From Bacillota bacterium (GTDB lineage: Bacteria > Bacillota_I > Bacilli_A > Acholeplasmatales > Acholeplasmataceae): a DNA stretch of 64,000 nucleotides. Below the pieces are notes generated by a model, which saw nothing but the letters and a program-made list of their open reading frames with translations, did not search any database and was not told where the DNA came from. How positions within the stretch are numbered: position 1 is the first letter of the stretch; each line of letters begins with the position of its first letter. Made by a program: the position numbers and the translations under genes. Positions 23,842 through 33,213 of this stretch are shown here, piece after piece. The stretch spans positions 1 through 64,000 of the forward strand of contig JAHISX010000058.1 in assembly GCA_018817915.1 (NCBI GenBank). The letters are read 5' to 3'.

Positions 23842-26800
23842 TTAATTCATTCTAGGGAACTCATCATTTGCCATGTTAATGAATGTGAAATCAAAATAAT
23901 ATGGATTTAGTCCAACAATGTCTGTATAAAAGTCTTGATCACTAAATTGAACCATACCTGCAGCTCTTAAGTGCCAGACATCATAATTCATATCCCAAGT
24001 ACCCACACCAGAAACGCCATTTTTAGTGACAACAATATCGCCATAATAGTAATTATTGAAATAGTTATATTCAGTCAGATAACTTTGATTGCCTCCAATA
24101 TAACCAACATAATCACTTGTAACTGTTAGATCTCCTAAAGCAAATGAATTATAAATTTTACCTGTATTAAAACCTACTAAACCACCTGTGTTACCGTATG
24201 AGGAATTCCCAAGGTTTGTAATATCTACATTCGCAAAGCTATTGTAAATAAAATTATAACTTGATGTACTTCCATCATTTTCAATCGTACCAATAAGTCC
24301 GCCCACATGTGTTTCATCAGCAAGTCCAACATCAATAAGACCTGTTGCACTTGAATGATAGATATCAAGAAAATTTGCTACACCAATTAATCCACCTACA
24401 ACTAGATATCCTGTTGCAGCACCTAAGTAGTCAGGCAAAATTGAAATCGATACATTGACATTAAGATCTTTAATATAACCACTTTGCACATATCCTAACA
24501 TGCCACCAAAATATCCACCTTTTACACCAGATACATGGACACTTGATGAACCGATGATATCCGAGTTTATGACCATACCAAACCCGCCTAGATAACCAAC
24601 TAAAATACCTGCCATTACTGAATTATTGCTATCTGTTGAAGTAATATAAATATCAGCATTTTCAATCGTTAAGTCTGCAATAAACCCACCGTCTACAAAT
24701 CCAAAGACGCCAACATAACTTTGTGCAGCAGATTCTCCTAAACTCTCAGATATATTAAAATTGGAAACAGTGTGTCCATTACCATCGAAGAATCCTGTAA
24801 ACCCATTGCCTAATACGCCGACAGGGCTAATAAACGCACCTTCAAGATCTAGATCATTTAAGAGTACATATTTACCCGTTGGAACCATCGTAGCAAATTC
24901 TCCTACGCTTGTGATGAATACGATATCTGGATCAGTTACATTGAATCCATAAAAATATGTTTGGAAATGATGACGATCCGCAGCATATGTACATGTTTCA
25001 ACAACCCCATTTTTTTCAAATGAATAATCAAGAACATAAACTGAATTATTTCCTCTTGAAATTTCAATAGGAAGTACCAATTGGTTAAGGTTATAAGGAT
25101 CAAGATTATCTGCATCAAAATTACTATAAACCAATGTATATCCATTAACTGATAGTCTAACGGTAGTGATGATTAAGTCATATGGATTATCAAAATGGAA
25201 ATAGAAATCACTGATGACTGTTGTATCACTGTCTGGTATTGAAATAAACGTATGACTCACTGTTTCGTTTGATGTGATATCTAGTAATTCCATCGTTGCA
25301 TCCTGTGGATCAACTTCATTATCTAAATAGACATGAACAGTAATATCTGAATTAAACGTGTATGTATAAGGTTCATCGTTAACTGTAACTGTCACACTGG
25401 TTAATGAGAAATTATAATCGCCACTTGGATGTGCACCCATATTGAGATAGATGACATGATTATCACTTAAGTATTCAAATTCATCGAATGGTACATAACT
25501 TAATGAAACAAAATCAATATCATAATTTTCAGGATTATTTAAATTAATTTCTAGTACAAGATCATCTAAAGAAAAGAACATCTGTGATCCATCAAAAGTA
25601 TCTAAACTAATATCAGGAGGTGTCATAAATGTAGTTGAATAGACTTTTTGTCCCATCCAATCAAATGTTGCCCATATTTCAATTGTATAACCATAATTAT
25701 CTTCGATTTCTGTATCAAACACAAACGTATTGTGTCCAGCAACGACATCTAATTTAGCAACTTGTGACAAGCCTTTCATTAAGCGAATGTAAACTTCTGA
25801 TGATACTAAGTAATCATCAATATAATCGAATGAAATACCAATTTCATGTGGTTGATAATTATGAATGACAGTTTCAACTGATGGTTCACTATTAACAACA
25901 GACACTGTACGTGTGACTTCAAACGTATGATTCCCACTAGAATCTGTTGCATTATAAGTTATGATATAATCTCCTAATGTATCCGTGTCAACAACATCCC
26001 CACCAATGATAACTGTGCCGTCTTGGTCATAATTATCATAAAAATTAGCACCTGGTTCCGTGTAAGAGTTACCCAAATTGACATAAATAATATAATCGCC
26101 TTCTAATTCAATTGTAGGTCCTGTCGTATCTTCTACGATGACTGTTCTTGTGACTACAGTTGCGACATTATCATGAGTATCAGTAAAACGATAGGTTACG
26201 GTATTACTACCTAAAGTAAGTAAATCTACAACACCTGTAATATTTGTTACACTGCCAGATGCATCATAATTATCTGTATATTCAGCACTCAATTCAACAT
26301 AATCTTCTCCATATTCTACATAAACAGTAGCTTCACCATTCAATGTAATCACTGGTTTAGTTAAATCAGTAACGATAATTGTTCTTGTAAGTTGAATTGC
26401 TGCATTCCCACTTGAATCAACAGCATCATATGTAACATAATATGAGCCTAGAATGCTGGTATCAACTGTATCTCCTCCAACAACTACTGATCCATCTGAA
26501 TCATAATTATCAGAAAAATTAGCAGTAGCTTCTAAATAAACTGTTTGATAATCATAAAACAAGGTATTATATCCAACCAATGTAAGTATAGGAGCTACTG
26601 TATCTTCAACAATGACAGTTCTAGTCATTTCATTTGCTTGATTTTCTTGACTATCTGCAACATTATAAGTAACTGTATATGTTCCTAAAACATTGACATC
26701 AACTGTATCCCCACCAACAATGATTGTTCCTGTCGTGTCATAATTATCAGCAAACGTTGCTGATAACTCATCATACGTTTCACCATATTCAACATGAATT

Positions 26801-27396
26801 GTATCATCACCATTTAAAGTAATGACAGGTGATGTTGTATCTTGAACAATAACATTTCTTTCAATTTGTAACGAAACATTCCCACTTGAATCTGTTGCTT
26901 GATATGTCACAACATAAGTACCAAGTGCACTTGTATCAACTGTATCCCCACCAACGATAACCGTTCCTACTAAATCCAAGTTATCAGAAAATTCAGCACC
27001 AAGATCTGTATATATTGCACCATACTCAAGATATACTGTAGCATTACCATTTAATGTAACAACTGGAATGACTATATCATCTTCCACTTCAGAATTGATA
27101 ATCACAATGACTGTGCGTGTTGCACTGATTGTTTCATCTAAATATGTAACACTATAAGTCACATGATATGTGCCTGGTGTTGTATTATCTACATCTGAAA
27201 CAGTTTCAATAGTAAGTCCATAATCTTGAGTTAATGTAGCACCTAACTCAACATATTCTTCATCAACATAAATTGTAATTTCTGCATCACCATTCATGGT
27301 AATTTCTGGTAAAACAACTATTGGATCATCGGGATTGCATCCCGCTAAATAAAAAAGACCAGCTATAATTATAAAAATTAGCATTAGCTTCTTCAA
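23842..27396 (-). CDS. Large surface lipoprotein with Ig-like repeats and a GLUG-type beta-helix
   Basis: A 1184-residue lipoprotein; the lipobox LAGC puts the lipidated Cys at residue 20. Six Ig-like modules of the DUF5011 type fill about residues 30-545, each with a T-L-N-G opening and a GGDTVD-like centre in most. A middle region of about 300 residues is beta-rich. The C-terminal part (about 850-1130) carries GLUG-type repeats such as VGGLIG and TGGLVGFNTG, which form a beta-helix in other surface proteins. Adhesion or polysaccharide binding is likely; no catalytic motif is seen. The start is TTG with GGAGGG eight bases upstream. The 283-bp gap upstream is very AT-rich and shows no clear gene. 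Confidence 0.82.
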   Translation of the reverse strand: MKKLMLIFIIIAGLFYLAGCNPDDPIVVLPEITMNGDAEITIYVDEEYVELGATLTQDYGLTIETVSDVDNTTPGTYHVTYSVTYLDETISATRTVIVIINSEVEDDIVIPVVTLNGNATVYLEYGAIYTDLGAEFSDNLDLVGTVIVGGDTVDTSALGTYVVTYQATDSSGNVSLQIERNVIVQDTTSPVITLNGDDTIHVEYGETYDELSATFADNYDTTGTIIVGGDTVDVNVLGTYTVTYNVADSQENQANEMTRTVIVEDTVAPILTLVGYNTLFYDYQTVYLEATANFSDNYDSDGSVVVGGDTVDTSILGSYYVTYDAVDSSGNAAIQLTRTIIVTDLTKPVITLNGEATVYVEYGEDYVELSAEYTDNYDASGSVTNITGVVDLLTLGSNTVTYRFTDTHDNVATVVTRTVIVEDTTGPTIELEGDYIIYVNLGNSYTEPGANFYDNYDQDGTVIIGGDVVDTDTLGDYIITYNATDSSGNHTFEVTRTVSVVNSEPSVETVIHNYQPHEIGISFDYIDDYLVSSEVYIRLMKGLSQVAKLDVVAGHNTFVFDTEIEDNYGYTIEIWATFDWMGQKVYSTTFMTPPDISLDTFDGSQMFFSLDDLVLEINLNNPENYDIDFVSLSYVPFDEFEYLSDNHVIYLNMGAHPSGDYNFSLTSVTVTVNDEPYTYTFNSDITVHVYLDNEVDPQDATMELLDITSNETVSHTFISIPDSDTTVISDFYFHFDNPYDLIITTVRLSVNGYTLVYSNFDADNLDPYNLNQLVLPIEISRGNNSVYVLDYSFEKNGVVETCTYAADRHHFQTYFYGFNVTDPDIVFITSVGEFATMVPTGKYVLLNDLDLEGAFISPVGVLGNGFTGFFDGNGHTVSNFNISESLGESAAQSYVGVFGFVDGGFIADLTIENADIYITSTDSNNSVMAGILVGYLGGFGMVINSDIIGSSSVHVSGVKGGYFGGMLGYVQSGYIKDLNVNVSISILPDYLGAATGYLVVGGLIGVANFLDIYHSSATGLIDVGLADETHVGGLIGTIENDGSTSSYNFIYNSFANVDITNLGNSSYGNTGGLVGFNTGKIYNSFALGDLTVTSDYVGYIGGNQSYLTEYNYFNNYYYGDIVVTKNGVSGVGTWDMNYDVWHLRAAGMVQFSDQDFYTDIVGLNPYYFDFTFINMANDEFPRMN

Positions 27397-29718: not shown

Positions 29719-30528
29719 TTATTCAAATACTGGTAGAACCAATCCATTATACTGTTCTAAGATAAACGCACTAACTGCATCAGATTGTAAAACTTCGAGT
29801 AATGCAACAATTGCAGGTGAATCTTCTGTTCCTTCACGAACTGCAATTATATTTGCATAAAGTAATGCGCCAACTGAATCACTTGATTCAGATGATAACA
29901 ACTTATCAACTACATCTGCGCTGAGTGCATAATTACCATTAATCACTCCAAAATCAACATCTGCTAATCTAGCTGGAATACCTGCTGCTTCAAGTTCAAC
30001 AATATCGATATGATAAGGATTACTTGTAATATCTAAAACTGTTGCTGATAAACCTGCATCTGGATCTAGTGTTATGAATTCAAGTGACTCAAGTAAGAGT
30101 AATGCTCTTGCACGGTTAGTTGAATCATTAGGAATGGCTATGCTTGCTCCATCTTCAATTGATTCTAGTGAAGTAGCAGTACCAGCATAAATACCAAGAG
30201 GTTCAAAGTGAACTGTACCTGCCGAGACAATTGTTGTTCCATTTTCTTCATTAAAATAATCTAAATATGGAATATGTTGAAAGAAATTCGCGTCTAATTC
30301 ACCATTGTCTAATGCTAGATTTGGTAAAACATAATCTGTAAATTCAACAATTTCTAATGTGTACCCTTTTTCTAATAAAGCATCTCTAACAAATTCTAGT
30401 ATTTCTGCATGAGGAACAGGTGAAGCGCCAACTTTAATCACTTTATCATCTATTGATTCTTCAGATGAACATGCTGCTAATGCCAATATAAATATCAATG
30501 TTACAACGTATAATAAACCTTTTTTCAT
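29719..30528 (-). CDS. metQ: Methionine-binding lipoprotein of the MetNIQ importer
   Basis: A 269-residue NlpA-family lipoprotein with lipobox LAAC (Cys20) that captures methionine for the importer. The family pattern is clear: VGASPVPHAEIL near the start of the mature domain, the DANFFQHIPYLD segment, and the late NGNYAL segment. AGGAG precedes the start. It is the last gene of metN-metI-metQ and is followed by a strong terminator. Confidence 0.93.
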   Translation of the reverse strand: MKKGLLYVVTLIFILALAACSSEESIDDKVIKVGASPVPHAEILEFVRDALLEKGYTLEIVEFTDYVLPNLALDNGELDANFFQHIPYLDYFNEENGTTIVSAGTVHFEPLGIYAGTATSLESIEDGASIAIPNDSTNRARALLLLESLEFITLDPDAGLSATVLDITSNPYHIDIVELEAAGIPARLADVDFGVINGNYALSADVVDKLLSSESSDSVGALLYANIIAVREGTEDSPAIVALLEVLQSDAVSAFILEQYNGLVLPVFE

Positions 30529-30538
30529 TTTTCTTCTC

Positions 30539-31192
30539 CTATAGTCTTTTATCTATTTTTTTTGATAATCCCGTAAATGAAACTTGAATAATTTGTACTA
30601 AAACAATAATGATGATGATTGTCCATAACATCATTTGTGTATCATAATTGTAATAACCATACCTGATGGCTATATCTCCTAATCCTCCGCCACCAGTCGC
30701 ACCAGCCATTGCAGAATAGCCTATTAAAGCGATTGCAACAATAGGAATGTTTCTAATCAAAGAGGGAATTGATTCCTTTATATAAACATGAATGACAATT
30801 TGATAAATTGATGCTCCCATGACTTCAATAGCTGAAATGGTATGTTGATCTATTTCTTCTAAAGAGGTTTCTATCATTCTTGCAACAAACGGTGTTGCAG
30901 AAATAAATAGTGGAATGATGGTACCAAAGACACCAATTGAAGTACCTGTAACCCATCTTGTAAATGGTATTAAAACTACCATTAAAATAATGAAGGGAAG
31001 GCTTCGCATGACATTAATGATAGAACCAAGTATCAAATGTAATTTAGGGCGTTCCATGAGTCCGCTCTTTTTGGTAAGTACAAGAATGATTCCTAATGGT
31101 AATCCAAACAAGTAGGCCAAAAAAAGCGATAATATAACCATGATTAATGTGTCTAAAGTTCCTTCTAGTAGTAAGTTGACAATTGGGTTCAT
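30539..31192 (-). CDS. metI: Methionine ABC transporter permease
   Basis: A 217-residue integral membrane protein with about five helices, forming the homodimeric channel of the MetNIQ importer. The family signatures include PLGIILVLT, RSLPFIILMV and the coupling segment near AIEVMGAS, plus GATGGGGLGD. The start overlaps the metN stop as ATGA, with AAGGAGGTG upstream, so the two are translationally coupled. Confidence 0.94.
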   Translation of the reverse strand: MNPIVNLLLEGTLDTLIMVILSLFLAYLFGLPLGIILVLTKKSGLMERPKLHLILGSIINVMRSLPFIILMVVLIPFTRWVTGTSIGVFGTIIPLFISATPFVARMIETSLEEIDQHTISAIEVMGASIYQIVIHVYIKESIPSLIRNIPIVAIALIGYSAMAGATGGGGLGDIAIRYGYYNYDTQMMLWTIIIIIVLVQIIQVSFTGLSKKIDKRL

Positions 31193-31932
31193 GGCTGCAC
31201 CTCCTTTCCAAGTAATAGTTTAGCTATTTCACTTTCAGGGTTTAAAAAGATATCTTCAGTATTTTTAAGTTCAATAAACCTACCCTGATCAATGACTAAG
31301 ACTTTATTTGTTAAAATCCTAGCCACATTAATTTCATGTGTGATGAGTAACATCGTGACTTTTTCTTCTTTATGTATATGTTGTAAAAGGCGAATGATTT
31401 CTTTAGTTGTTAATGAATCTAAAGCTGATGTTGGTTCATCAAGCAAAAGTAATCTTGGTTTATTGACTAAAGCTCTCGCAATAGCAACCCTTTGTTTTTG
31501 TCCTCCGGACAATTTAGCTGGATATACGTTTTCTTTACCCACAAGACCAACTTTAATGATGAGCTCATCTACTGTTTGTTTAATTTCCTCTTCGTTCTTC
31601 TTTTGAATGCGAAGGGGGAACGCAATATTTTCATAAACAGTCTTTTGCATTAAAAGATGATAGCCTTGAAAAACAAATCCAATCTTTTTTCTAAGTTCCT
31701 TTAATCTTTTTTCATCTTCATAATCAAAAATTTCACCATCAATTAATATTTCACCTTGATTCGGTTTTATTAGACCAGAAATTACATTAAGTAACGTGGA
31801 TTTCCCTGCACCACTCATTCCAATAATTCCAAATAAGTCCCCATCTTCAACAGTAAAAGATATGTCCTCAAGGGCATTAAATGTGTTTTCTTGTGTTACA
31901 TAAGATTTGGTTAAGTTTCTAATTTCTATCAT
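31189..31932 (-). CDS. metN: Methionine ABC transporter ATP-binding protein, short form
   Basis: A 247-residue ATPase that powers methionine import. Walker A is GMSGAGKST, the signature is LSGGQKQR, Walker B is LLLLDEPTSAL, and the H-loop LITHE is present. It ends soon after the nucleotide-binding domain, so it lacks the C-terminal NIL/ACT methionine-sensing domain of E. coli MetN (about 340 residues). Feedback inhibition by internal methionine should therefore be absent, and control may rest on the upstream leader. The start is the ATG with GGAGG just before it; a longer frame reads through the leader terminator. Confidence 0.92.
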   Translation of the reverse strand: MIEIRNLTKSYVTQENTFNALEDISFTVEDGDLFGIIGMSGAGKSTLLNVISGLIKPNQGEILIDGEIFDYEDEKRLKELRKKIGFVFQGYHLLMQKTVYENIAFPLRIQKKNEEEIKQTVDELIIKVGLVGKENVYPAKLSGGQKQRVAIARALVNKPRLLLLDEPTSALDSLTTKEIIRLLQHIHKEEKVTMLLITHEINVARILTNKVLVIDQGRFIELKNTEDIFLNPESEIAKLLLGKEVQP

Positions 31933-31945
31933 AGCTTCCTCCATA

Positions 31946-32211
31946 TAAAAAAAGGCAATCGACAAATCGAGCACCTTTTATGCATAAAAATAAGATTTTT
32001 TATCAAATAAAAAAAATCGAGTTCAAGTACGCCGGAAAGGTGGTTATACTCTATTGCTTTAACGGGCAATCCCGATGTCTTCTACTATTATTTCGCAGAC
32101 ACTACTCCAAGACCATTACTTGTCAATATACGCTTTACCTGCTTCCACCTAACCAGGCTCTCTATGAAAGATTTCTTGACAATCTCTTCTTATCAATGTA
32201 TTTATTCTATT
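31946..32211 (-). promoter_or_regulatory. T-box-like leader of metNIQ with methionine specifier
   Basis: The transcript of about 280 bases between the promoter and metN has T-box features. A Stem I helix TGTCAA (32176-32181) / TTGACA (32121-32126) has AGAGAG and GGTTAGGTGGAA in its distal part. A specifier-loop segment AGTAATGG carries ATG at 32114-32116 followed by a purine and TCTTGGAG. The Stem III hairpin CGGGATTGCCCG (32063-32074) is followed by TTA. The expected antiterminator box near 32039-32053 reads TAGAGTATAACCACC, which aligns with the conserved T-box but has TATA where TGGN should pair with the tRNA end. A hairpin with T8 (31946-31979) directly before the ribosome site is the likely terminator. 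The 437-bp gap between metN and the next gene also holds the promoter and a cre-like site. Confidence 0.7.
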
Positions 32212-32217
32212 AAATGT

Positions 32218-32245
32218 ATTATAGCAAAGAAATAAAATAAAGCAA
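32218..32245 (-). promoter_or_regulatory. Promoter of the metNIQ leader
   Basis: On the minus strand TTGCTT (32240-32245) and TATAAT (32218-32223) are 16 bases apart. Confidence 0.65.
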
Positions 32246-32754: not shown

Positions 32755-33213
32755 TTAGTCATTTTGTTTTCCAGTAATATGTTCAATTTCAATTTCTATA
32801 ATTGAAGTATGATGATAATCTTGTTCAATACTTTCCTTACTTTCATCTAGTACATTTTTTGCATACTTTTTCACAAGTTCAAATAGTATTTCTTTATTGC
32901 CTGGTATAACCTTCGCTTTTCCAAATAAGGTAACACTCTTATATTGCGAAGTTAATTTTGCTTCGATGATTGATTCTTCTCCAACAACTGTAAATGATAC
33001 TTTTTCATTTGTTTGAATATTATCAATTTTATGTCCTATTTTAGCACTATGGAAATAAATTTTATTATTTAAATATACAAAATTTAAGGGTATTGTATAT
33101 GGATAACCATTATCTGATAAAGTTCCTAAAACACCAAATCTTCCATTTTTCAATATTTGAAAGCTCTCTTGATCATTCAATTGATTTTGTTTTCTTGTCA
33201 TCTTTCTGAACAT
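32755..33213 (-). CDS. Pyridoxamine 5'-phosphate oxidase-like flavin-binding protein
   Basis: A 152-residue split-barrel protein of the PNPOx-like superfamily, close to the NimA/5-nitroimidazole reductase type. The opening NGRFGVLGTL and the YTIPLNFVY and IYFHSAKIGHK segments are typical of FMN or cofactor F binding in this group. The substrate is unknown. AAAGGAG precedes the ATG. Confidence 0.78.
   Translation of the reverse strand: MFRKMTRKQNQLNDQESFQILKNGRFGVLGTLSDNGYPYTIPLNFVYLNNKIYFHSAKIGHKIDNIQTNEKVSFTVVGEESIIEAKLTSQYKSVTLFGKAKVIPGNKEILFELVKKYAKNVLDESKESIEQDYHHTSIIEIEIEHITGKQND

Follow-up and report, generated by a model that had tools for sequence, protein, structure and literature searches.

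Results

The metNIQ operon and its upstream region

The window, that is the whole stretch of 64,000 nucleotides analysed here, carries on its minus strand the genes metN (31189..31932), metI (30539..31192) and metQ (29719..30528). The top NCBIfam matches of these genes are the expected families (TIGR02314 for metN, NF008049 for metI, and NF008285/TIGR00363 for metQ), yet the scores lie under the curated cut-offs, which for metN is the equivalog cut-off. We place the start of metN at the ATG at 31932, which is favoured by a Shine-Dalgarno (SD) sequence, GGAGG, at 31938-31942. The frame is open 5' of this codon (window:31930-31980, minus strand), and the start listed by the program is a GTG at 31974, inside the hairpin referred to below as T2. 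Directly 5' of the leader a promoter-like stretch, TTGCTT ... TATAAT (32213..32245, minus strand), was recognized by eye only; a consensus promoter/terminator scan listed neither this stretch nor T2, which probably escaped it owing to a mismatch in the stem. On the same strand, positions 32755-33213 hold a gene resembling the Nim-type 5-nitroimidazole reductases (NF000261, 138.6 bits, the cut-off of 260 not being reached), and downstream of the met operon (23842-27396) a protein of 1184 amino acids with a lipoprotein-like start is encoded, which has many repeats of the type VITLNGDxxIxVxxGxxYxExGAxxxDN and looks like an Ig-like surface protein.

The leader retains the decoding half of a Met T-box

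A sequence-only reading of this region had proposed a T-box-like leader 5' of metNIQ, with Stem I and an ATG specifier in the right context, and these proposals are borne out. The covariance model RF00230 matches positions 31949-32205 of the minus strand with 75.6 bits (E = 1.4e-16); the match itself is clear, but it lies under the gathering score of 93 bits, and at that threshold the leader gives no match. In the RF00230 alignment, Stem I (32109..32194, minus strand) comprises an AAGA:UCUU base, a UUGUCAA:UUGACAA helix and an AGAGA/GGUGGAAG tip, in which the interdigitated T-loops AGAGAGCC / GGUGGAAG can be recognized; the AG-rich bulge and the GGUG tip that form the elbow-binding T-loops are thus present in the leader. 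The Met specifier ATG (32114..32116) is followed by a purine and then UCUU, as in its relatives, and agrees with the pathway, given that it precedes metNIQ. Stem II, with an S-turn-like GAA/AGUA (32075..32102), is supported by the same alignment and by the covariation of the relatives, and it is followed by the Stem IIA/B pseudoknot (32053..32074), of sequence CGGGAUUGCCCGUUAAAGCAAU, which includes the F-box CCGTTA and whose loop AUUGC pairs with GCAAU. The element previously taken for Stem III is this pseudoknot.

The conservation of these helices was evaluated in an alignment (A3) of 98 distinct sequences. Stem II (helix 1) is paired in 95% of them, with changes on both sides at 6 of 6 pairs, and the four pairs of the IIA/B pseudoknot are paired in 97% and covary strongly. 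Folding-energy z-scores of the leader and of Stem I were uninformative.

A hairpin lies between Stem IIA/B and the expected position of Stem III

The sequence-only reading had aligned TATA with the TGGN of other T-boxes. In the window, this TATA (32045-32048) is located within a hairpin, GAGUAUAACC..GGCGUACUUGA (helix 4; 32023..32051, minus strand), that we refer to as the inter-domain hairpin. In the canonical metN leaders L084, L086, L089 and L093, a hairpin GAGUAUG..UACUUGA lies between IIA/B and Stem III with the AAGGTGGTACC antiterminator, and its counterpart in the window is AGAGTATAACCACC..GGCGTACTTGA; the TATA is therefore not a mutated TGGN but the 5' strand of the inter-domain hairpin, and its assignment to the antiterminator bulge was a misalignment. 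The same hairpin stands 5' of a normal TGGN box in 118 other Met T-boxes.

In alignment A3 the hairpin is paired in 100% of the sequences. In both the hairpin and the IIA/B pseudoknot, each pair has changes on its two sides, at a level far beyond that of column shuffles and slid controls. The model used to fit the alignment includes the hairpin, which favours this element, and the pairs of the pseudoknot lie outside that model. Of 395 genomes in the class, 132 contain sequences that match a covariance model extending from the specifier to the hairpin (R1). Across the Met T-boxes of the class the hairpin GAGUAU..GUACUUGA is kept between Stem IIA/B and Stem III, and the U 3' of the helix is conserved in 99%. 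The literature searched gave no description of this hairpin, which might bear on the reported preference of the Staphylococcus aureus Met T-box for the initiator tRNA.

The discriminator is absent from three leaders

The discriminator of known T-boxes is made up of Stem III and the antiterminator; it senses the free end of the tRNA and has UGGN invariably at the edge of its bulge (PMC7583486). The TGGN bulge of the antiterminator was found in 118 of 121 Met leaders; a few of these have a box that differs slightly (e.g. TGGTACACG) and escaped the regular expression, and it was confirmed by eye. The remaining 3 of 121 are those of the window, of genome G214 (L082/L118) and of genome G361 (L083/L115), in which both Stem III and the antiterminator with its UGGN bulge are absent. 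In the window there is no TGGN between the F-box and the SD region of metN, as had been noticed before; the claim of an altered tRNA-end-binding part thus holds as a loss and fails as a four-base change, given that the whole discriminator is gone. A single-strain mutation or a read error is refuted by the shared architecture of G214 and G361. As a separate observation, the box of some Met T-boxes is longer by one T (AAGGTTGGTACC), which shifts UGGN relative to helix A1 (L156, L160, L175, L179, L180, L187, L189, L192, L195, L196 and L205).

The three variants all precede metN and retain the ATG specifier, the AGAGA/GGUG tip, Stem II, the IIA/B pseudoknot and a core, GCAATAGAGTATAACCA, that is identical letter for letter; as judged by reading the sequences, Stem I can be folded in each of them with different sequences. 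The S-turn of Stem I (AGUA/GAA) is found in 0 of the 3 variants versus 96 of the 97 other Met T-boxes in the alignment. RF00230 scores the variants, all devoid of the T-box sequence, with 75.6 (window), 62.2 (L083) and 44.6 bits (L082).

Without the parts of the discriminator the leader cannot work in the canonical manner; it is either a remnant or a device that reads tRNA-Met by docking alone. If it were a vestigial T-box, tRNA would be irrelevant, metNIQ would be expressed by partial readthrough of T2 or under other control, and the hairpin and the pseudoknot would be slowly eroding remnants. That the three leaders lost the S-turn of Stem I along with the discriminator favours this view, as do the RF00230 scores under the cut-off and the Lactococcus lactis Met-transporter T-box, in which deletion of UGGU lowers expression and antitermination is abolished (PMC7058034). 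Nonetheless, the core is identical in the three leaders although the MetN proteins of L082 and L083 are only 55% and 50% identical to that of the window, the helices of Stem I have been re-paired by new sequences, and the complementarity between GAGUAU and the T2 arm described below is present in 3 of 3. The sequence-only reading had left open whether the element decays or reads tRNA in another way; the identity of the core and the maintained pairing of Stem I despite the divergence of MetN disfavour simple decay, leaving another way of reading as the most likely outcome, and we regard a vestigial element as somewhat unlikely.

Other T-boxes of the genome and the tRNA 3' end

The genome contains about a dozen (12) other T-boxes, each of which carries the usual box, GGTGG[T/C]ACC, including a Met T-box (L003) before metS, which encodes methionyl-tRNA synthetase. 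L003 has an ATG specifier and the usual box, so that tRNA-Met is presumably read normally elsewhere in the cell, and a changed tRNA 3' end as the cause of the loss is unlikely given that these T-boxes keep TGGN. The assembly, which is 95% complete, yielded 24 tRNAs, none of them a tRNA-Met.

It is also conceivable that charge sensing was kept, with the ACCA end of the tRNA pairing with another segment that replaces UGGN. UGGC is present in the inter-domain hairpin of L082 and L083, and in the window an antiterminator formed by GAG and CACCUUU would leave in its 5' strand a 6-nt bulge, UAUAAC, outwardly like that of a T-box. However, the window has CGGC instead of UGGC, UGGU (needed for A73) occurs in 0 of 3 linkers, the UAUAAC bulge is not conserved, and Stem III, on which charge sensing depends in known T-boxes (PMC7583486), is absent. 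We consider this explanation very unlikely.

Terminators and a candidate antiterminator

In the three variants CUUGAA is followed by an eight-U tract and then by a new hairpin region. The window shows here a possible early terminator, T1 (CUCGA plus the U8 tract; 32009..32021, minus strand), whose AUCGGG:CUCGAU fold is exclusive with Stem IIA, and a U-rich/A-rich hairpin, GAUUUUUU..AAAAAAUC (31994..32018), which is the core of an extended hairpin around which the antiterminator pairing closes. Directly 5' of the metN SD lies the terminator T2, AAAAGGUGCUCGA UUUG UCGAUUGCCUUUU plus a U tract (31947..31979, minus strand), with a stability of -9.6 kcal/mol on its own; a hairpin of this type with a U tract precedes the SD region of metN in each variant (-9.5 to -9.8 kcal/mol).

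When helices of at least 6 bp with at least 2 G-C pairs were sought 3' of the F-box, a single one was common to all three variants, formed by GAGUAU of the inter-domain hairpin with the 5' arm of T2 (GUGCUC, AUGCUC and AUACUC). In the window this candidate antiterminator pairing, P1, joins 32046-32051 with GUGCUC at 31969..31974 (minus strand). When the three arms were shuffled, 2 of 20,000 trials gave any conserved hexamer able to pair with each of the arms, and pairing of GAGUAU with the terminator arm was seen in 4 of 89 canonical Met T-boxes; the three leaders being related, both figures overstate independence. GAGUAU is invariant and P1 therefore shows no true covariation, and its internal loop differs between the variants. 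The window has an alternative to P1, in which GAG plus CACCUUU pair with AAAGGUG plus CUC. The state with the inter-domain hairpin and T2 is predicted at -18.6 kcal/mol for the window, -25.7 for L082 and -20.4 for L083, and the antiterminator state at -13.7 (-16.9 in the bulged form), -26.3 and -16.8 kcal/mol, respectively. On paper the two states are mutually exclusive and close in energy, with helices that are not canonical.

The pseudoknot itself could be the switch: without tRNA, the IIA/B strands would form T1 (AUCGGG:CUCGAU in the window), docking of the tRNA would hold IIA/B so that the polymerase passes, and T2 would be secondary. The minimum free energy folds of all three leaders close a stem directly before U8 with strands of IIA or IIB, and other T-boxes need IIA/B in order to bind the tRNA (PMC7583486). 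Against this, shuffles of the T1 spacer often reach the observed stability (fractions of 0.30, 0.14 and 0.15), which is weak support for the stem, and the pairing partner differs in L083; we judge this explanation unlikely. On the strength of the same shuffles, T1 as the sole platform was rejected. Control of translation, or attenuation by a leader peptide, in place of transcription termination could be argued from the position of T2, which abuts the SD, and from its U tract, which can pair weakly with the SD. However, no upstream open reading frame with an SD common to the three leaders was found by reading the sequences, and each leader has a hairpin with a U tract, as is usual for intrinsic terminators, which makes this alternative hardly probable at all.

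Distribution of the variant

Within its own family the metNIQ operon of the window lacks close orthologues, and its nearest MetI relatives belong to other families of the class. In a MetN+MetI tree the window, L082 and L083 group with the canonical L084 (UFBoot 96), and the three variants alone form an inner group with weak support (UFBoot 57). This is consistent with one ancient loss of the discriminator followed by long retention as the simplest reading. The variant is missing from the other members of the window's genus and family, which suggests acquisition of the operon by transfer.

A search with an exact pattern in the window's own order (160 genomes), in the family of G214 (34) and in the order of G442 (279) gave no fourth member, and a search with R1 in the order of G214 (90) and in the class sample (395) gave none beyond the three. 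A direct DNA similarity search within the family returned short matches only, mostly to the T-rich linker. A first MetN scan of genome contigs recovered distant relatives only; one of them, L072, from a Clostridia MAG and with a MetN 49% identical, has a SAM-I riboswitch (RF00162; L072:2356-2453) in the place of the T-box.

Discussion

The leader of metNIQ keeps Stem I with its AUG and tip, Stem II and IIA/B, and it has lost Stem III, the UGGN bulge and helices A1/A2. The reading that we prefer, with a probability of roughly 0.45, is that it is a discriminator-less Met T-box with a rebuilt terminator/antiterminator platform, which would read the occupancy by tRNA-Met rather than its 3' end. 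The conservation of the core and the retained complementarity of GAGUAU with the T2 arm favour reading of occupancy over decay. Somewhat more tentatively, the three leaders may represent a class of functional tRNA riboswitches that derive from T-boxes and lack any aminoacylation-sensing domain; these would read the occupancy by tRNA-Met through Stem I/II/IIA-B and would act through an antiterminator rebuilt from the Met-specific inter-domain hairpin.

According to this proposal, the inter-domain hairpin, which in Met T-boxes lies between IIA/B and Stem III, would have been recruited as the new expression platform. With the hairpin GAGUAU..GUACUU closed, T2 would form before metN and metNIQ would be off; when the extended hairpin downstream takes the 3' strand of the inter-domain hairpin, GAGUAU could pair with GUGCUC in the 5' arm of T2, and this pairing would act as an antiterminator and allow transcription of the operon. 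What we infer from this arrangement is that tRNA binds, which way control runs and that the leader switches: tRNA-Met docked on Stem I/II/IIA-B would bias the choice of state, possibly by blocking the early terminator T1, which is incompatible with IIA/B, and if so, the occupancy by free tRNA-Met would be sensed without base pairing to the tRNA 3' end. Counting against this proposal, the loss of the S-turn in all three leaders may weaken the docking of the anticodon, and expression from the L. lactis Met-transporter T-box falls when UGGU is deleted (PMC7058034).

If the docking half was kept over deep divergence after the discriminator had been dropped, the halves of a T-box can be uncoupled, and these leaders are a natural case in which to ask whether occupancy by tRNA is enough to control transcription. 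A search among open-licence papers gave no account of a T-box that lacks the discriminator. The analysis also brought to light a conserved hairpin of Met T-boxes.

The closest known system is the canonical class I Met T-box located 5' of metNIQ (RF00230; L084, L086, L093, and the met operon of L. lactis, PMC7058034), with which the leader shares the gene context, the Met specifier, the Stem I tip, Stem II, IIA/B, the terminator before metN and the inter-domain hairpin (seen in L084, L086 and L093). In contrast, the leader of the window has no Stem III, UGGN bulge, A1/A2 or Stem I S-turn, and its terminator arm is complementary to the inter-domain hairpin instead. L003, in front of metS, belongs to the same organism and has the same ATG specifier and expected tRNA family, but it has the GGTGGTACC antiterminator box and a GAA before the specifier. 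The class II translational T-boxes of ileS also dock the tRNA by Stem I/II/IIA-B; however, they keep the UGGN discriminator and control access to the SD, and the leader studied here does neither, as far as is visible. In the Met T-box of S. aureus metICFE, a change of the specifier has no effect on tRNA binding whereas the T-box motif is needed (PMC3771891); it is thus another Met leader in which contacts beyond the specifier matter, but one that keeps the motif that the window has lost.
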